48,705 nucleotides of DNA from Rariglobus sp. (GTDB taxonomy: Bacteria > Verrucomicrobiota > Verrucomicrobiia > Opitutales > Opitutaceae), in the NCBI GenBank assembly GCA_029266495.1, contig JAQSWS010000019.1:1-48705 (forward strand). Direction: 5' to 3'. The notes under the pieces are model-generated. The model searched no databases. It saw only the letters and a list, made by a program, of their open reading frames with translations, and was not told the origin of the DNA. Position 1 is the stretch's first letter. Every line of letters starts with the position of its first letter. A program made the translations under genes and the position numbers. Positions 26,158 to 36,799 of the stretch are shown here, piece by piece.

Positions 26158-26739
26158 TCACGCTGCGCGGCGTTTACGCCAGACACAGAACCCAATGGCA
26201 GCCGCACCGAACAGGCCCGCGTAGGCGGCGGGTTCGGGGACGGCTGAGGTTGAAATGCTGTCGAATGATATTCTGAACGTGGTCGTGGATGAGGGTGATC
26301 CTCCGGAAATACCAAAAGCAATGACGCTGGAAGGGTCGAAGAGGCCTTCTGTAATATACTCGACGGATAAGGTGCTAAAGCTTGTGGACATCAGTGAGGA
26401 GCTGAAGTTGGCGTAGGCGTAGTTACTGAAATCATTATACAGTATTACGGAGAAACCTGTGGCGGTATTGCCCGCATCAAGTCTGGCAATCACGCTGATC
26501 ATCGTGTCGCTGCCCATGCTGATTGGCTCCGATAATACATAGATCAGACTTCCGAAGTCGGTAGCGCTTGCTCCAATGGTTCCGAAGGTCGTGTTATCAA
26601 CATAAGCGCCGCTCCATGTATCATTGAAAATAGCTGAGTCGATATTCTCATCAGATGAGAAATCTGTGAATGTTGTGGCACTCAGCGAAAGGGTTAGTGA
26701 CGCGGCAATTGCCGCAAGAATAAGTTTGGTGATTTTCAT
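26158..26739 (-). CDS. PEP-CTERM sorting-domain protein
   Basis: A 193-residue exported protein: signal peptide MKITKLILAAIAASLTLSLSA, a Ser/Thr/Asn-rich beta-type body, and the C-terminal sorting signal VPEPAAY, a hydrophobic stretch (AGLFGAAAIGFCVW) and the basic end RKRRAA. Such tails are recognised by exosortase, which is not encoded in this window. It lies 12 bp after the TIGR02597-like gene on the same strand and shares its terminator at 26102. Base composition is visibly less GC-rich than the flanking genes. Confidence 0.88.
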   Translation of the reverse strand: MKITKLILAAIAASLTLSLSATTFTDFSSDENIDSAIFNDTWSGAYVDNTTFGTIGASATDFGSLIYVLSEPISMGSDTMISVIARLDAGNTATGFSVILYNDFSNYAYANFSSSLMSTSFSTLSVEYITEGLFDPSSVIAFGISGGSPSSTTTFRISFDSISTSAVPEPAAYAGLFGAAAIGFCVWRKRRAA

Positions 26740-29601: not shown

Positions 29602-30027
29602 TCAGTCCTTCGCGCGTTGCCAGTTTTCACAGGCGAGACCCGGGACGCGGGCGAACTTCTGGGCATTGTGCGTCACAAACACGGCGCCAGTGGCCAAAGC
29701 CTGGCCGGCCAGCAAGGCATCGTAGGGACCGATGGGCTGGGCGTTGGGTTTTAGATTCGCGAGATGAGCCCGGACAAAACCGGCGTGGTAGGCGGCGGCC
29801 GCGCCGAACGGAATAACCTCGGGGAAGAGTGACTGGAGTTGAAGGATGCGGTCGCGAAACGCGGGGATGTCGGGGCGCTTGGCGGCGCCGTATTCGAGTT
29901 CCATGAGGGCGATGGCGGCGAGGCGGCATTCGGGGAGGCGGGCCTCCACGCGGTCGCACAGGGCGGCGTCTTCGCGTCGGTCGCGCAGGTAACGCGACCA
30001 GACGTTGGTGTCCGGCAGGTAGATCAC
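29602..30027 (-). CDS. vapC: VapC-family PIN-domain toxin
   Basis: A 141-residue PIN ribonuclease, the toxin of a VapBC pair. The acidic metal-binding residues are in place: Asp6 (LPDTNVWSR), Glu43 (ALMELEYG), Asp103 (IGPYDALLAGQA), plus VTHNAQKF near the end. It starts with GTG that overlaps the vapB stop by four bases (GTGA), so translation is probably coupled. VapC toxins usually cleave tRNA or rRNA; the target here is unknown. Confidence 0.92.
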   Translation of the reverse strand: MIYLPDTNVWSRYLRDRREDAALCDRVEARLPECRLAAIALMELEYGAAKRPDIPAFRDRILQLQSLFPEVIPFGAAAAYHAGFVRAHLANLKPNAQPIGPYDALLAGQALATGAVFVTHNAQKFARVPGLACENWQRAKD

Positions 30028-30245
30028 GTGGTGTGGTCGGGGAAATCGGGGGCGGAGCCGCGCAAGGCGCGGAGGGACTTGAGGCGTTTGGCTTCGACGG
30101 CGGGATCGATGAGCCGGTAGCCCCCATTGAGCGGCTCAATGATGTAGGCCTTGGCCTTGGGCTTCATGGAGCGGGGCAGGCGGATGGCCGTGGAATTGCC
30201 CGACTTGAAGACCTTGGCGATGACGGGCTGCTGGGTGGTGCTCAT
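30024..30245 (-). CDS. vapB: VapB-family AbrB-type antitoxin
   Basis: A 73-residue antitoxin. The N-terminal AKVFKSGNSTAIRLPRSM is the swapped-hairpin DNA-binding motif of AbrB/MazE-type VapB proteins, and the acidic/basic C-terminal tail should wrap VapC. ATG 30245 (MSTTQQPV) is chosen; in-frame ATGs at 30251 and 30266 would run into the palindromic operator candidate. The pair lies 31 bp downstream of the sigma factor gene on the same strand. Confidence 0.87.
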   Translation of the reverse strand: MSTTQQPVIAKVFKSGNSTAIRLPRSMKPKAKAYIIEPLNGGYRLIDPAVEAKRLKSLRALRGSAPDFPDHTT

Positions 30246-30255
30246 GTGCATACGG

Positions 30256-30265
30256 TGTATATACA
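30256..30265. promoter_or_regulatory. palindromic operator candidate for vapBC
   Basis: The 10-bp palindrome TGTATATACA lies directly upstream of vapB, in an AT-rich pocket within GC-rich surroundings, with a similar half-site GTGCATAC beside it. VapB-VapC complexes typically repress their own promoter by binding such palindromes. Confidence 0.45.
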
Positions 30266-30276
30266 TTGCCGTCGGG

Positions 30277-30987
30277 TCAAGGAGTGAGGGCGGCGAGGAG
30301 GTGGCGGAGTTCGGCGTCGACGTCCTCGGGGCGGGCGACGGTTTGGGCGACCTCCTCGCGGAGGAAGTGACGGTATCGCTGTCGAAGGCGGTGCAAGGCG
30401 ACGCGCACGGCGGGTTCGGTGAGGCCGAGTTTGGCGGCGAGATCAGCGTGCGGGGAGCCGGCGGTGCGGCCGGCCAGGCAGGGAAGCAAAGCGTCGAAGT
30501 GTTCCGGGTTGGCGTGTTCGGTGCGGAGACGGGCAGTGACGGTGTTAAGGAGCGCCAAGGCCCACGTGCGGTCGAAGGCGCGGTCAGGGGCGAGGTTGGC
30601 GCACGCAGCGGAGGCGAGGGCGGCCTCGGTGGCGGCGGTGTCGAGCGCCGGCAGCAGGTGCGCGCCGCGTTTTTCGGCGCGGGCGTGGTCGTGGAGGTCG
30701 GCGAGGTAGTGGTTGAAGGAGCCGAGGAGAAAGGCGCGAAAGCGTCCGCGTTCGCGTTTGGCATCGGCCAGCGATTCGAGGCGGAGGAGTCGGGCGAAGA
30801 AGCCTTGGACGGCGTCCTCGGCGTCGGCGGGCGCGAGGCCGCGGCGGCGAGCGTGGGCGTAGAGCGGCGGCCAGTAAGTCTGGCAAAGTGTGGAGAGCGC
30901 GCGTCCGGCGGAAGTTGTATCCGTTTCTCCGTGACGGGCTGCGTCAAGGACGACCGTCCAGCGTGTGGTGGCGAAGGAGGAGCTCAT
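30277..30987 (-). CDS. ECF-like RNA polymerase sigma factor
   Basis: A 236-residue sigma-70-family factor. Region 2 covers ALSTLCQTYWPPLYAHARRRGLAPADAEDAVQGFFARLL and the following RFRAFLLGSFNHYLADLHDH; region 4 ends with the helix-turn-helix AAKLGLTEPAVRVALHRLRQRYRHFLREEV. This form, with a long linker, is common in Planctomycetes and Verrucomicrobia near Ser/Thr kinase genes. Its start overlaps the stop of the ASCH gene by four bases (ATGA). No anti-sigma factor is encoded beside it, so control by the upstream kinase is a reasonable hypothesis. Confidence 0.85.
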   Translation of the reverse strand: MSSSFATTRWTVVLDAARHGETDTTSAGRALSTLCQTYWPPLYAHARRRGLAPADAEDAVQGFFARLLRLESLADAKRERGRFRAFLLGSFNHYLADLHDHARAEKRGAHLLPALDTAATEAALASAACANLAPDRAFDRTWALALLNTVTARLRTEHANPEHFDALLPCLAGRTAGSPHADLAAKLGLTEPAVRVALHRLRQRYRHFLREEVAQTVARPEDVDAELRHLLAALTP

Positions 30988-31403
30988 AGGCCCGACTGGC
31001 TGTGGAGGGCGGCGGCCGGAGAAGGCTCAATCAGTTCAAAGTGGGTCGCCATCAGTTCGAAATCGTCGTGCAGTCCGTAGTCCGGCCAGCATTTCCGATG
31101 CTCCTCCTGGAAGTGCCCGGCACTGGTGCAGCATTCACCTTTCCACAGTTTTTCGGGAATATCACCGAACCTTACGGGATATCGTTCGGTGACACGGATG
31201 AGGCATCTTAGCCGCTGACGAAGGTCGTATACCTCCACGATATCGCCGGGCTCCATGCCGCCGTCGTCGAACTCGCCCATGGGGAGATAATAATCATCCG
31301 CTCTGCATGCGGTGGCGGTTTTGCGGCCGGCGAGGACGTCCAGGAGGAGTTCCTCGTCGTCTTCATTCTTTCCCCAAAACTGAGTGCGTTTGCGACGGTT
31401 CAT
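30984..31403 (-). CDS. ASCH-domain protein
   Basis: A 139-residue protein with ASCH hallmarks: FWGKNEDDEELLLDVLAGRKTATA near the start, PMGEFDDGGMEPGDIVEVYD, and IRVTERYPVRFGDIPEKLW, followed by CWPDYG and a final strand. ASCH proteins have a PUA-like RNA-binding barrel and some are nucleases or amidohydrolases acting on modified nucleosides; which applies here is unknown. Translationally coupled with the sigma factor gene (ATGA overlap). Confidence 0.78.
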   Translation of the reverse strand: MNRRKRTQFWGKNEDDEELLLDVLAGRKTATACRADDYYLPMGEFDDGGMEPGDIVEVYDLRQRLRCLIRVTERYPVRFGDIPEKLWKGECCTSAGHFQEEHRKCWPDYGLHDDFELMATHFELIEPSPAAALHSQSGL

Positions 31404-31467
31404 GAAGGCTGGGTTGACGTTGGTGACGGGTGGCGAAAGGCGGCGGTAAAGCCGGGCCGGCGGGGAG

Positions 31468-31956
31468 TCATGACGTTCGCTGGTCGAGCAGGCGGTCGAT
31501 AAGATCGGCGAGCGGAATGAATCGGCGGATCAATACAGCGACATCGGCTTCGGTTTTTTCGGCGTCGAGGTCGATCCAGCCTTCCATCAACGTCTGCGGT
31601 CCGTAGTCGGTCGAGACGTGGGACCAGTCGCCCGATGAACTCGCGAAGGCGGCGCGGAAGGCGGCGGCGAATTCACGGCTTTGGATCGAGAAGCCGGCGA
31701 GCGAACGAAGTTTGAGGGCGTGAATGTTGTAGCACACGCGTTGTTGCCGGAGGCTTTTTTCGTTGATCCAGACGGAAAAGAAAAGGCCCGCCTCGCTTGG
31801 CGCGGGAGCGGGGCCAACGGAGGTCCATCGGCGTTTTTGGAGTTTAAGGACGGCCGATTCGTGCCAGCGGCCGACGTGGGCCTCGATTTGTTGAGCGGCG
31901 AGGGCGGGGCGGGAGTGAGTCGCAGCGCGGGTAAAGGAGTCGAGGTAAGTGTCCAT
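31468..31956 (-). CDS. hypothetical soluble protein in the kinase cluster
   Basis: A 162-residue protein with no signal peptide or membrane segment and no family I recognise. It has mixed alpha/beta character, with segments such as HESAVLKLQKRRWTSVG, GLFFSVWINEKSLRQQRVCYNIHALKLRSL and TLMEGWIDLDAEKTEADV. It starts 15 bp after the SLBB-protein gene and lies 64 bp before the ASCH gene, so it is probably part of the same operon. Confidence 0.62.
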   Translation of the reverse strand: MDTYLDSFTRAATHSRPALAAQQIEAHVGRWHESAVLKLQKRRWTSVGPAPAPSEAGLFFSVWINEKSLRQQRVCYNIHALKLRSLAGFSIQSREFAAAFRAAFASSSGDWSHVSTDYGPQTLMEGWIDLDAEKTEADVAVLIRRFIPLADLIDRLLDQRTS

Positions 31957-31971
31957 GGAGGAGCGGGGAAC

Positions 31972-32640
31972 TCAGAAAATCGTTTCAGGCACAAAGATCG
32001 TATCGTGATCCAGGAGCAGCGGATTTGTGGTCTGGCCGCGCAGAATGGCGGTGGCGTCGTGCGAGGTGACAGTGGGCTTTTCGCCGGCAGGACCGCGCAC
32101 GATGGAGATTTTCCGAACGTCGGCGGCGGGTCCGCCCCCGCCGGCGGCCGCGAGGGCGTCGAGAAGCGTGGCACCCACCTGAAGAGAATAGGCGCCGGGT
32201 TTTTTCACGGCACCCAGGACGTTGATGGTGGGGGCGGGGAGAGAGGTTGAAGTGCGGGGGCCCGGGGTATCCCGTCGATAGGTGATTGTGTAGGTGAGCG
32301 GTTCGGGATCCACGCCTTTTACACGCATGATGAAGCCGGACGGGGTTTTCTCCAGAGTGGTGGTGTTGTCGAGGAAAACTCGTTCTTCGGATGCCCAGTT
32401 GGCCTTAAGTGCATTTTGGACATACTCGTAGACGTTTGTGGTTTTTGACGTGGAGTTCTCCTCCCGGGCGAGCTGGCTTTCAACCGCCGTGAACTTGACC
32501 GGACCGGAAGACCAGAAGGCTTCGCCGCGCGTTAATTCCATGGAGAGATTTGGTCCGGAAATAACCACGTGGGTGGCGTCGAACGGCGCGAAGAAGATCG
32601 CGATATAGAGGAGGATTTCAGTCAGGGGAAAGAAGGTCAT
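31972..32640 (-). CDS. membrane-anchored SLBB-domain protein
   Basis: A 222-residue protein with one N-terminal hydrophobic segment (LTEILLYIAIFFAPF), a middle part of unknown fold, and a C-terminal SLBB domain reading INVLGAVKKPGAY, TLLDALAAAGG, VRKISIVRGPAG, ATAILRGQTTNPLLLDHDTIFVPETIF. SLBB domains occur in polysaccharide export proteins (Wza-like) and bind ligands or oligomerise. The same domain ends the kinase encoded 7 bp upstream, and the two tails align along their length, indicating duplication. It may co-assemble with the kinase's outer part. Confidence 0.8.
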   Translation of the reverse strand: MTFFPLTEILLYIAIFFAPFDATHVVISGPNLSMELTRGEAFWSSGPVKFTAVESQLAREENSTSKTTNVYEYVQNALKANWASEERVFLDNTTTLEKTPSGFIMRVKGVDPEPLTYTITYRRDTPGPRTSTSLPAPTINVLGAVKKPGAYSLQVGATLLDALAAAGGGGPAADVRKISIVRGPAGEKPTVTSHDATAILRGQTTNPLLLDHDTIFVPETIF

Positions 32641-32647
32641 GTGATGT

Positions 32648-35600
32648 TCAGTCTAGGAAGCGTTCAGGAATGGAGATGCTTGCCTGGGTGGGAAGCAGGG
32701 GATTGGAGGCCTCACCTTTGAGAATAGCCAAGGCATCATGATTGCGGGGCTGGACCGGTGAACCGTCGCTGGAGCGCGGCAGGATCGAGACTTTTTTGAG
32801 GTTGGCGGTGGCGGTCCAACCACCGGCGGCGGCGAGGGCGTCGAGGAGGGTGGATTCGGCGGGGAGCGGGTAGGATCCGGGGCGGTTGACCGCGCCGATG
32901 ACGTTGACCCGGGTGGCGGGACCACTGTCGGTGACGGAGGGGCCGGGGGCCTGGGTCGTAGTCTGGAGAGTGGGCGGAGCGGACAAGGCGAGCGCTGGAT
33001 TGATGAAGTAGCCGGCGGCCCGCCATATGCCGTCGGATTCGTGAACGAAGGTCACTGTTTCCACTGCAGCAGGTGCGGAGTCGAATTTGGTGTCGAACTG
33101 CATGAGGAGGTAGCGCCCTCCCGGCAACTGGGTCAACGGTGTGGCCGAACGCAGCCGGCGGACGTGGGCTTTGCCGAGGGGAGCGCGTGTGCCGAGCATT
33201 GCTGCGGAGAATTTCTCCATGGTGATTTCCGAGCGGAGGAGCGGTGACGCGTCGCGCCAGGCAGTGGAGTAACCCTCGCGGTCAATGCCCGTCAGCCAGG
33301 CTTGCGTGGTGTTGATGACCGGGAGGATGTCGTCGGCTGGCGAGGGGGCGACCGAGAGCATTCGGGATTTCTGGTAACCGGCCAGCTCCCAGACGGAGCC
33401 GGGGCGGGCGCTCTCGGTTAATTTGCAGAGAGCTTCGATGGCCGGGGTGGCTTTGAAGTCCAGTTCCGGGGACTGCACCGAGAGCCACGGGGTCGGATCG
33501 ACGCCGGGGGCGACGGGCATCGCGAATACCATGCCAGTCGCGATGGGACGGTTGCCGGGGGATTGTTTGGTGATGGCGTCGATCGCTTCGCTCACGGTCA
33601 TCCCGGCGGTTTTTAAGGTGACGGGAAACGCCAGTCTCGAATCGGCACGGGGTTGGATGAGCCAGGTCGCACCGATCTTTCGCGCAAGGTAAGGAGTGTC
33701 GGCGGTGAGACGGGTGAGAAAGTCCGGGACAGAGTCGCCGTTGATCGTTCCTTGATAGCGTGTGCCGAGATCGAGGAGCGTGTTGGGATCCTTGGATTCA
33801 CGGGCAAGTTTGAGCAGCGCTTCCTCGAGCTTGGAGTATGGCGCGTTACGGTCGGCCTCGGCGATGATCTGGGCGGCGGTCTTGGCGTCGGCGATCGTGA
33901 AATCGAGGTTTTCGAACGAGAGTCGAAGGCCGTGGTCGAGGCGGAGACGTTGCACGATGTTTTGCATGGTGTCGCCGGCACGATCGAAGTGGATGGAGCG
34001 TTGGTCTTCGGTCGAGTCGGAGGCGTCGGCGGAGTGGATGGTTTTGTAGCGGAGAATGACGTCCGCGGCATCGGTCGCGCCGAGGAGTTGAACTAACACG
34101 AGGGTTTTTTGTGGTGTGCGATAAACGCGCGTGGCGGGGGCTTGATTTGAGGCGGGCGCGGGAATGAACGTCATCAGGCCCTGGCTGGGTTTACCGGCAT
34201 GGCGCGCCGCTTCGTCGGCAGGGGCATCCCAAATCTCGGGCGCGACTTCGGCGAGCTCGGTTCCGAGGAAGAGAACCCCGGGTCGATACGAGTCAGGATC
34301 GGCGAAGATGTCGGTGCCGTGCTCGGCATGCCAGTCGGACGAGGCTTGAATCCCGTGCGGATGTTTCCGGGTGGACTTGTAGTCGACGAAGCGTCCGTGG
34401 TCGAAGTCGTAGGCAGTGGGGCGGGTTCGTGGAAGCGTGATTTCGCGGACGGGGCCGAAGCGAAAGGAGGGAGGCTTGGGAGCCGGCAGATCCTGATTGC
34501 GCGCGGTGCTGGCGGCGGTTGCCTTATGGGTGCGTAGAATATCGAGCGCGGTGCTGACGGGTAGGATGATACCCATGAAGGTGAGCAAAATAAGCAGCCA
34601 AGGTGCGAGAGGCCGCAGGGCGCCAGCCACTTTTGATGGCGGAGGCAGATGAGCGGCGCGTTCGGGATGCTTGAACACACGGAACAGGCGGACGACCCGC
34701 AAGGTGAGCGCCGCGAGGACGAATCCGGTGAGGACCCATAGGCCAGCCATCGGAAAATGAGGGGGCGACTTGAGGTGCGCCCAATGCCACAGGATTTGTA
34801 GTCCCCAGAAAAACGCGGCGATGAACGCGGCGACCCAGAAGCCTTCACGGAGCAGCCGGGCGTGGGTGGCGGGGGCGCGCTGCGGAGAGAGCCAGAAATC
34901 TTGATGGGGGAGATCGATGAACAGCGCGGGTAAAAAACGCGGCAGTGCGAAGAGGCAGGGGATGAAGAACGACACGCCGACGCCGATGAGCAGCAGGACA
35001 AGCAGGGCGACGCCGCGTTCCGCCCAGCCGTCGGGTTGTCCCGCGATCGTGAAATGCACCGCGACCTGCGCGGGAAAATTTTTGGCGGCGAACTGAAGGG
35101 AGCCGCAGAGGCAGAACAAGAAAAACACGAGGATGCTTGCCGGCAGGAGAGGTAGCGGAGGACGCGGCGGATCGTCGGTGGCAGGGGCTGTCGGTGCCGC
35201 TTTATGGGAGGAGGCGTGTCGGCGCGCGATTTCGATCGCTGAAAACATAACGGCGAAACCCAGCGCCATGATAGGGAAAGAAGCGAAGCCGGCGATCTGG
35301 GTGAATTCGCGGGCCCACGGCGAAAAGAACTCGATGGCGGCGGGATCGTGATGGGCGGGCGAGCTGGCATGGACGCCCCATGCGGATCCGCCGAAGGCAT
35401 ACCAGCCAAGGGCCAGTCCGCCCAGAGCGACCGGCGCAAGGGCGAGTCCGGCGAAGGCGGCGAGTGCGCCGATGCCCAAGCCACCGTAGGCGAAGAGCGC
35501 GAGGACAAGGCCGCCGTAACTGAAGGCACCGATGCTGATGCCTCCGAAGGTGAAGCCGCCCATCGCTATTCCACCGAACGCGATGAAGCCTTGTGATACT

Positions 35601-36718
35601 TCACCGATGGCGATGATGCCGCGCGCAATTCGCCTCTTGCCGGTTGAGGGATCGGCGCCCACGGCGATGTGGAGAAGAGGGAGGCCGAAGAGAGTGCGGT
35701 GGCTGCGGTAGGAGAAACCGTAATTTCCCTGGGCGGGCGCGGCCGCGAGCGGCGTCACAGGTGGCGACGCGGGAGCGTGCGTGGTGGCGAAGGTTTCGAT
35801 CTGGGTTTTGAACTCGCTGGCGGCGGCGTAGCGGCGGGCGGGGTCTTTTTCGAGGGCGCGGAGGACGATTTCATCGAGACGGACATCAAGGTGGACGCGC
35901 GTCGAAGGGGGTTGAAGTTGGCCGGCGGCGGGGAGTTCGCCCGTGAGCATTTGATAGAACACGACACCGAGGGCGTAGAGATCGGCGCGGTGGTCGACCT
36001 CGGCGGGACGATCGCGTTGCTCGGGTGCCATGTAGGCGGGGGTGCCCATCAAGCCGCCTTCGGCGGAATGACCAATGACCAATGACGAATGACCAATGGC
36101 TTCGGCGGACGGCGTGGTGGTGGTGAGCTTGGCGATGCCGAAGTCGGCGATCTTTACCCGGCCGAGGCGGTCGACGAGGATGTTTTCCGGTTTGATGTCG
36201 CGGTGGATGAGACCGCGGTCGTGCGCGTATTGGAGGGCGTCGCACAAGGGCGGGACAATCGCGAGGGCTTCGCGCGGTGCGAGCCGGCCGGCGGCGAGGA
36301 GCTGGCGGAGGTTTACGCCGTCGACGAACTCCATCAGGATAAAGTAACGGCCGGCGGCGGTGCGTCCGAATTCGTAGAGGGTGACGATGCCCGAATGATT
36401 GAGCTGGGCGAGGGCGCGGGCCTCGCGAGTAAAGCGTTCGGCGAAACCGGGGTCGGCGTCCAGGCCGGGACGGAGGATTTTTAGCGCGACAAAGCGGTCG
36501 AGGTCGCGCTGCCGGGCCTTGTAGACGGCGCCCATGCCGCCGCGTCCGAGGAGTTCGATGATTTCAAGTCCGGGAAATTCGGCGGCGAGTTCCTCCGGGG
36601 TGGGCGGCGGCGCGGAGTTGGTGGCGGCGTGGGCGTCCGGCGCTTGCGTGGAGAGGCCAAGAGCCAGCAGGGCGGCGGGATCGGGTTCGCCGGAAAGAGG
36701 TGTGGTGGGTGAGGTCAT
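32648..36718 (-). CDS. transmembrane Ser/Thr protein kinase with Gly-rich membrane repeats, DUF1648-like segment and C-terminal SLBB domain
   Basis: A 1356-residue receptor-type kinase. The N-terminal PknB-like domain has GRGGMGAVYKA, ALKIL, HRDIKPEN with catalytic Asp174, DFG at Asp192, and GTPAYMAPEQ. The activation loop has an extra 14-residue stretch (about 204-217) coded by heptamer repeats. Residues ~359-453 are a striking Gly-rich periodic region (IAFGGIAMGGFTFGGISIGAF...). Then come several membrane segments, including a DUF1648-like motif (VAVHFTIAGQPDGW, near 550). The last ~600 residues should be outside the membrane and include an STN-like stretch (AGMTVSEAIDAI) and an SLBB domain (RVNVIGAVNRPGSY, TLLDALAAAGG). 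ATG 36718 is chosen over ATG 36769. It heads an operon with the SLBB protein, an unknown protein, the ASCH protein and the sigma factor. Likely role: envelope sensing; ligand unknown. Confidence 0.88.
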   Translation of the reverse strand: MTSPTTPLSGEPDPAALLALGLSTQAPDAHAATNSAPPPTPEELAAEFPGLEIIELLGRGGMGAVYKARQRDLDRFVALKILRPGLDADPGFAERFTREARALAQLNHSGIVTLYEFGRTAAGRYFILMEFVDGVNLRQLLAAGRLAPREALAIVPPLCDALQYAHDRGLIHRDIKPENILVDRLGRVKIADFGIAKLTTTTPSAEAIGHSSLVIGHSAEGGLMGTPAYMAPEQRDRPAEVDHRADLYALGVVFYQMLTGELPAAGQLQPPSTRVHLDVRLDEIVLRALEKDPARRYAAASEFKTQIETFATTHAPASPPVTPLAAAPAQGNYGFSYRSHRTLFGLPLLHIAVGADPSTGKRRIARGIIAIGEVSQGFIAFGGIAMGGFTFGGISIGAFSYGGLVLALFAYGGLGIGALAAFAGLALAPVALGGLALGWYAFGGSAWGVHASSPAHHDPAAIEFFSPWAREFTQIAGFASFPIMALGFAVMFSAIEIARRHASSHKAAPTAPATDDPPRPPLPLLPASILVFFLFCLCGSLQFAAKNFPAQVAVHFTIAGQPDGWAERGVALLVLLLIGVGVSFFIPCLFALPRFLPALFIDLPHQDFWLSPQRAPATHARLLREGFWVAAFIAAFFWGLQILWHWAHLKSPPHFPMAGLWVLTGFVLAALTLRVVRLFRVFKHPERAAHLPPPSKVAGALRPLAPWLLILLTFMGIILPVSTALDILRTHKATAASTARNQDLPAPKPPSFRFGPVREITLPRTRPTAYDFDHGRFVDYKSTRKHPHGIQASSDWHAEHGTDIFADPDSYRPGVLFLGTELAEVAPEIWDAPADEAARHAGKPSQGLMTFIPAPASNQAPATRVYRTPQKTLVLVQLLGATDAADVILRYKTIHSADASDSTEDQRSIHFDRAGDTMQNIVQRLRLDHGLRLSFENLDFTIADAKTAAQIIAEADRNAPYSKLEEALLKLARESKDPNTLLDLGTRYQGTINGDSVPDFLTRLTADTPYLARKIGATWLIQPRADSRLAFPVTLKTAGMTVSEAIDAITKQSPGNRPIATGMVFAMPVAPGVDPTPWLSVQSPELDFKATPAIEALCKLTESARPGSVWELAGYQKSRMLSVAPSPADDILPVINTTQAWLTGIDREGYSTAWRDASPLLRSEITMEKFSAAMLGTRAPLGKAHVRRLRSATPLTQLPGGRYLLMQFDTKFDSAPAAVETVTFVHESDGIWRAAGYFINPALALSAPPTLQTTTQAPGPSVTDSGPATRVNVIGAVNRPGSYPLPAESTLLDALAAAGGWTATANLKKVSILPRSSDGSPVQPRNHDALAILKGEASNPLLPTQASISIPERFLD
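36059..36108. repeat. heptamer-repeat insertion with 8-bp direct repeats inside the kinase gene
   Basis: About 4.5 units of the AATGACC heptamer (36067-36098, one unit with a C-to-G change) lie between two copies of TTCGGCGG (36059-36066 and 36101-36108). Insert plus one flank is 42 bp, so the reading frame is kept. The unit is identical to the array at 7813-7895. Confidence 0.9.
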
Positions 36719-36799
36719 GGTGGCGGGAGAACGAAGGCTCCTGTCACTTACTGAGGAAGCGGCGGGCAAACGTTACAGCCGGCTTTTCGACGCTCACAA

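Follow-up and report, generated by a model that had tools for sequence, protein, structure and literature searches.

The window analysed here is a 48,705-nucleotide stretch of Rariglobus sp. (contig JAQSWS010000019.1), taken from a genome, G000, of 4.9 Mb in 172 contigs that is 99.75% complete. It contains a minus-strand operon that begins with a Ser/Thr kinase gene and ends with a gene for a sigma factor of the extracytoplasmic function (ECF) type. Directly after the kinase gene lies a gene for a small protein with a copy of the last domain of the kinase, here called the twin; two further genes separate it from the sigma gene, and a promoter-like motif precedes the operon. Twins of kinase tails recur in other kinase-sigma operons. 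In the direction of transcription, the features are:

36753–36777, minus strand: promoter-like motif TGTAAC-N13-TTCCTC, ending 34 nt upstream of the kinase ATG
32648–36718, minus strand: Hanks-type Ser/Thr kinase, 1356 aa, ATG start, containing hydrophobic segments and ending in a long tail
35885–36565, minus strand: catalytic domain of the kinase, residues 52–278 (PF00069, Pkinase, E 3e-44)
34985–35098, minus strand: DUF1648 in the membrane region of the kinase, residues 541–578 (Pfam, E 2.4e-8)
33008–33307, minus strand: DUF4019 in the kinase tail, residues 1138–1237 (Pfam, E 2.5e-24)
32756–32908, minus strand: SLBB domain at the kinase C-terminus, residues 1271–1321 (Pfam, E 1.7e-12)
31972–32640, minus strand: twin SLBB protein, 222 aa, with a hydrophobic N-terminus and a beta-rich N-terminal domain, ending in a copy of the last (SLBB) domain of the kinase
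32071–32226, minus strand: SLBB domain of the twin (Pfam PF10531, E 3.9e-13 to 5e-13)
31468–31956, minus strand: 162-aa protein (p162) of a rare unnamed family, apparently an inserted gene
30984–31403, minus strand: ASCH-domain protein, 139 aa (PF04266, E 3.5e-6), apparently an inserted gene
30277–30987, minus strand: ECF-type sigma factor, 236 aa, with DAED at residues 55–58

The open reading frame (ORF) coordinates agree with the original prediction of five closely packed genes: the gaps are 7 bp between the kinase and SLBB genes, 15 bp between the SLBB and p162 genes and 64 bp between the p162 and ASCH genes, and the ASCH and sigma genes overlap by 4 bp (ATGA). An alternative TTG start of the kinase at 36769, yielding a longer ORF, falls within the promoter-like motif. 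The kinase carries the motifs GRGGMGAV, VALK, HRDIKPEN, DFG and GTPAYMAPEQ, and its hydropathy profile features about six clear segments and one glycine-rich stretch. Defence-system matches at the locus (PADLOC) are to the kinase domain only. The tails of such kinases vary widely even inside the clade of the window. Outside DUF4019, the tail of the window kinase has no relative at E 1e-8 in the 288 genomes searched; stretches related to it are present in G097, a genome of the same genus, and at L160, where an STN-like match is weak (E 0.2). The L160 locus (L160:2-1483) is a short contig of a Chthoniobacteraceae metagenome-assembled genome, with a tail 48% identical to that of the window kinase and containing DUF4019, directly before a sigma gene. 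There is no kinase on this contig, and the segment before the tail is presumably an efflux adaptor.

The SLBB domains of the kinase and the twin share 47.9% identity across 94 aa (E 2e-10), which bears out the predicted duplication. A full-length homologue of the twin was found, besides the window, only in G097, the search covering 150 genomes of the family and 13 of the genus. The structure model of the twin, built from 15 aligned sequences, has a mean predicted local distance difference test (pLDDT) score of 77.4 and a predicted template modelling (pTM) score of 0.46. The modelled SLBB half matches WzaB, a class-3 polysaccharide export (OPX) protein, with Z 14.7 (1.5 Å over 85 residues) and Wza with Z up to 13.1; the modelled N-terminal half, a beta domain, has LolA-like matches that are middling to weak, at most Z 5.9. 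The twin as an OPX protein was considered and ruled out, as it has the SLBB domain but not the Poly_export domain: the latter has no Pfam match up to E 1 in the window proteins, and the score of the twin against TIGR03027 (28.5 bits) is under the cut-off of 180. The predicted role of the locus as an envelope or polysaccharide sensor is partly supported, by the Wza/WzaB type of the SLBB domain.

The sigma factor matches Sigma70_r2 and r4_2 below the cut-offs and yields 33.8 bits against NCBIfam sigma70-ECF (cut-off 42.9), while 19 homologues align with it over the full length. It does not belong to TIGR02989, the Rhodopirellula/Verrucomicrobium sigma family (20.2 bits, curated cut-off 124.55). 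The set examined comprises 197 loci with 198 distinct sigma units; units identical over the first 200 sigma residues were merged, and three places (G178:C42, G224:C4, G318:C21) were left out. A same-strand kinase lies within 3 kb in 154 units, 32 of them kinase-first and 122 sigma-first; some of the 44 units with no kinase sit on short contigs. The FastTree tree implies at least 12 switches of gene order. The window sigma falls in a clade of seven, all kinase-first (support 97), and G097, standing outside the tree, is the eighth member of this clade: its sigma is 79% identical and the order is also kinase-first. Hence the conserved gene order expected in the Opitutaceae is seen for kinase then sigma in all eight clade genomes, whereas p162 and ASCH genes between them occur in the window alone. 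One contig of the clade genome G053, of the same family, is identical to a contig of Geminisphaera colitermitum TAV2 (assigned to the Opitutaceae at NCBI), one search behind this comparison covering the best 80 matches; the earlier mention of the Opitutaceae is therefore credible. TAV2 itself has the kinase-sigma core but no twin.

Twins are found in other operons as well. We compared each kinase tail with the non-kinase proteins of its own locus, dropping nine of the 154 kinase units with tails shorter than 80 aa; G097, with its kinase split over two contigs, is not among the units. A copy of the tail is present in 11 of the 145 units (10 kinases), as against 93 of 20,880 mismatched pairs. 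Of the 32 kinase-first units 6 have such a copy, and of the 113 sigma-first units 5. The duplicated domain is SLBB in the window, DUF4019 at L078 and Big_5 at L113, L114, L126, L135, L143 and L161; two more, at L114 and L258, have no family. For every twin-bearing kinase the copy begins from -4 to +82 nt past the kinase stop, and in each case the match reaches to within five residues of the kinase C-terminus. A copy upstream was seen only at L143, at the same kinase. In the other operons the twins are small exported proteins, and most twins have a clear signal-peptide-like N-terminus as judged by eye. Ten kinase-first units have an intervening gene of at least 90 aa, and in six of these it is a twin. 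At L149 the intervening gene encodes an exported Big_5 protein, but its kinase has no Big_5; L119, L128 and L228 have such a gene and no twin.

In a second control, copies of the C-terminal domain were observed in 8 of 70 pairs of a kinase and the next gene, compared to 1 of 293 other adjacent pairs (Fisher p 1e-5); the greedy gene calls used here missed L078, L113 and L258 and added the second kinase of L143. By parsimony, the tree requires nine changes in twin state. The counts and tests are not independent, because most of the twins are Big_5 domains from one lineage. Among the Big_5 operons, identities are 74–86% within the kinase-borne copies (L113 excluded), mostly 66–90% within the stand-alone copies and mostly 55–71% between these sets. 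Thus the two kinds of copies form distinct sets and have been long retained together rather than freshly duplicated. The SLBB pair, shared by the window and G097, has likewise been retained side by side; since the G097 kinase gene is split, it is the beginning of its second contig that shows kinase tail and twin side by side. The papers listed in the literature searches, with subscription papers outside their range and with 12 of 219 papers covered for the last, loose query, contained no description of kinase-domain twins, and none of the four listed for SLBB places it together with a kinase and a sigma factor in bacteria.

The promoter-like motif precedes this operon exactly in five of the eight clade genomes and with at most one mismatch in all eight. 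Across these genomes the exact motif has six sites, five of them at this operon, compared to none for the reversed motif, so that the exact motif reveals no wider regulon in them; the other exact site in G000 overlies an ORF on the opposite strand. Of further one-mismatch sites, the 15 inspected in G000 and G097 all lie over called ORFs, some of which are short. Of the four inspected in G005 and G053, one is intergenic, 21 nt before a gene that we take to be xylulokinase-like. Upstream of the kinase-sigma operons outside the clade (L106–L265), TGTAAC is the top enriched hexamer, found at 33 of 185 operons with 6.2 expected from shuffles preserving in-phase dinucleotides. The exact GTAAC-N13-TTCC is present at three of the 185, with 0.15 expected. 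The aligned TGTAAC sites have a loose downstream consensus, T/C-rich with GTAA- and CTGA-like parts. The natural reading of the motif, though not a proof, is an autoregulated promoter, and the window sigma would then use TGTAAC-N13-TTCCTC. The predicted kinase-to-sigma signalling is supported by this conserved motif, by the 154 same-strand pairs among 198 units and, in the accessible parts of the publications, by the phosphorylation reported for ECF43.

On balance we favour the following reading, which builds on what the sequence itself shows: the order of the genes, the motifs of the kinase, the copied domain, the twins at other loci, the insert and the conserved motif. The locus would be a Ser/Thr protein kinase–ECF (STPK-ECF) signalling operon with an SLBB-ended kinase and its twin, which later received a two-gene insert; it would be transcribed by its own sigma, and the twin would tune the kinase. 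The kinase tail may sense a polymer or another state of the envelope. The activated kinase would phosphorylate and so activate the sigma factor, by analogy with studied pairs, and the phosphorylated sigma would transcribe its own operon from the motif. Each round would yield more twin, predicted to contact the kinase tail through SLBB-SLBB interactions, acting either as a competitor that damps self-association of the kinase or as a co-receptor; these two roles are not distinguishable from the sequence. What we infer here is thus the sigma phosphorylation, the use of the motif, the membrane side of the tail, its ligand and the sign of the effect of the twin.

Several observations weigh against this reading. 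Only about 7% of the units have a twin, most twins come from one Big_5 lineage, and in the clade of the window three of the eight operons have one. The hydrophobic N-terminal stretch of the window twin has no basic residues typical of signal peptides. The hydropathy of the kinase is compatible with either membrane side for the tail, and because it does not decide, the side assumed here follows from the likeness to the exported twins. The sigma factor keeps DAED, so the charge-restoring mechanism of EcfP is not transferable to it. With one mismatch allowed, the motif has 68 sites across the eight genomes and the reversed control 29, and therefore further targets may exist. Finally, the region has no standard promoter and no excess of terminators, a result that says little about a promoter of the ECF type.

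A possible alternative, which we hold to be rather unlikely, is that the twin is an ordinary envelope product of the regulon, engaged in polysaccharide handling, while the kinase uses its own copy of the domain to sense that substrate. SLBB is typical of polysaccharide export proteins (PMC9603273, in its accessible part), the twins of other operons are small exported proteins, and if the operon is the main target of its sigma, its products are natural outputs. On the other hand, the window twin lacks the OPX-defining domain, Poly_export, and kinases with DUF4019, Big_5 or one of two unnamed domains are paired with twins in the same way. Hence a single substrate such as polysaccharide is insufficient as an explanation, although a ligand shared through the shared domain would suffice.

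It is improbable that the twins lack a shared role and are passive remnants, left by tandem duplication or by shuffling of domains next to rapidly evolving kinase tails. The tails are indeed highly variable and most kinases have no twin, but the copies come after the kinase and comprise entire C-terminal domains, at a rate well above that of other neighbours (8/70 versus 1/293). Moreover, the kinase-borne and stand-alone Big_5 copies are two separate lineages, and the SLBB pair is present in two species.

The p162 and ASCH genes appear to have been inserted between the twin and sigma genes at a later time. In G097, the kinase tail with SLBB is followed by the SLBB protein, the sigma gene overlapping it by 4 bp, and a VapBC pair, and there is neither a p162 nor an ASCH gene. 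Six more operons of the family Opitutaceae have kinase then sigma and neither of the two genes. Therefore the simplest history is insertion in the lineage of the window. Close relatives of p162 are found in two of 150 family genomes including its own and, in the phylum, in one of 387, its own; those of the ASCH protein in two of 288 phylum genomes, its own and one at 36% identity. Given this rarity and their lack in G097 and the other clade operons, the two genes as conserved parts of the system are ruled out, and ASCH as the regular output that had been proposed is not supported. The GC content does not clearly mark the insert: 57.6% for ASCH, 58.7% for SLBB, 61.1% for p162, 64.2% for the kinase and 70.0% for the sigma gene.

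Profile searches of the Pfam/NCBIfam type gave no credible family for p162, and its structure model is poor (mean pLDDT 56.9). Its relative in G132 has a different setting, with no ASCH gene within the 3.5 kb read. Neither protein has a match in plasmid collections, nor has ASCH, the only one tried there, in a phage collection. An IMG/VR contig (L196:1-5495) carries a 42% identical relative of p162 at its edge; the neighbours are presumably a Mu-like transposase and ATPase, and we take the contig to be a Mu-like prophage. That all five genes form one integrated system, with ASCH and p162 as dedicated RNA-directed outputs, is very improbable: the spacing is tight, ASCH overlaps sigma by 4 bp and the two would share the transcript, but in G097 the twin and sigma genes overlap by 4 bp with nothing between, the other clade operons lack both genes, and their close relatives are rare or, for p162, set elsewhere. 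Sitting in such an operon, the two genes would come under its control, and as one transcript would express them with the rest, a strain-specific output is possible.

Some neighbouring features may be mentioned. In the G097 region (L094:4434-8155), the kinase tail has a frame change, either a sequencing error or a real break, and a repeated tail domain and another stretch replace the DUF4019 region of the window. Directly after the window sigma gene lies a VapBC-like pair (29602–30257, minus strand), with an inverted sequence of the GTATATACAC type before VapB; the pair following the sigma gene in G097 is 80 and 83% identical to it. The NCBIfam scores of the pair are under the curated cut-offs. 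Further on, a protein (26158–26739, minus strand) has, by eye, a PEP-CTERM-like end: VPEP, a hydrophobic stretch and a basic end.

ECF sigma factors regulated by kinases are among the least studied, the way in which their kinases sense a signal included. A domain-matched twin provides an experimental handle, as the small protein can be changed and the sigma output read, with the promoter motif as a reporter; the TGTAAC element could also seed a family-wide promoter model. More tentatively, the twins might represent a general, so far unrecognised device: a receptor kinase gene would be followed directly by a gene for its C-terminal sensor domain as a separate and usually exported protein, with both genes under the sigma that the kinase controls. 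The copy would then close a feedback loop as a titratable partner of the sensor, either competing with it or serving as its co-receptor, and the domain could be swapped for an unrelated one (SLBB, DUF4019, Big_5, others) with the pairing preserved. If the twin is indeed a competitor under the control of its own receptor, bacteria would have in it a simple equivalent of soluble decoy receptors, in several domain versions.

Compared with known systems, the ASCH protein resembles the YqfB-type amidohydrolases and the ASCH RNase in having an ASCH domain. As far as the available part of the YqfB description goes, its stretch GRKTATACR, compared by residue spacing with Lys21, Thr24, Arg26 and Glu74 of YqfB, offers candidates for Lys and Thr at equal spacing, whereas its Arg lies one residue later and Glu has no assigned counterpart. 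The twin shares the SLBB fold with class-3 OPX proteins such as WzaB; unlike them, it has a different N-terminal beta domain and no Poly_export, and its gene is inside a kinase-sigma operon.

The following comparisons of the sigma factor rely on the accessible parts of the publications. ECF43 is the studied case of kinase-regulated ECF sigmas, several other, mainly planctomycete, groups being predicted (PMC8999054); phosphorylation of the partner sigma was reported for EcfP/PknT in Vibrio and EcfK/PknS in Xanthomonas (PMC8999054, PMC13147305). The window pair resembles ECF43 pairs in that a Ser/Thr kinase gene lies beside the ECF sigma gene, no anti-sigma factor is seen, and the kinase has a membrane region and an extra domain. 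Unlike ECF43 sigmas, where DAED of region 2.2 is replaced by uncharged residues with the target Thr and phosphorylation occurs in that motif, the window sigma has an intact DAED and falls outside ECF43; therefore the site and manner of its activation would differ. ECF59, ECF61, ECF62 and ECF217, listed mainly from the Planctomycetes, resemble it by their description, as distinct from group models, in having a kinase neighbourhood and keeping DAED or similar charges (PMC8999054). In the accessible text, a kinase-domain twin is mentioned neither for ECF43 (PMC8999054, PMC13147305) nor, like the inserted genes, for these four groups (PMC8999054). The original statement that no system with this set had been described stands, in the literature searched, for the five genes together, whereas the kinase-sigma core of the operon is of a described kind, STPK-ECF. 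The five-gene set itself is not conserved, and interest centres on the recurring twin of the kinase's last domain and on the promoter element found across the family.

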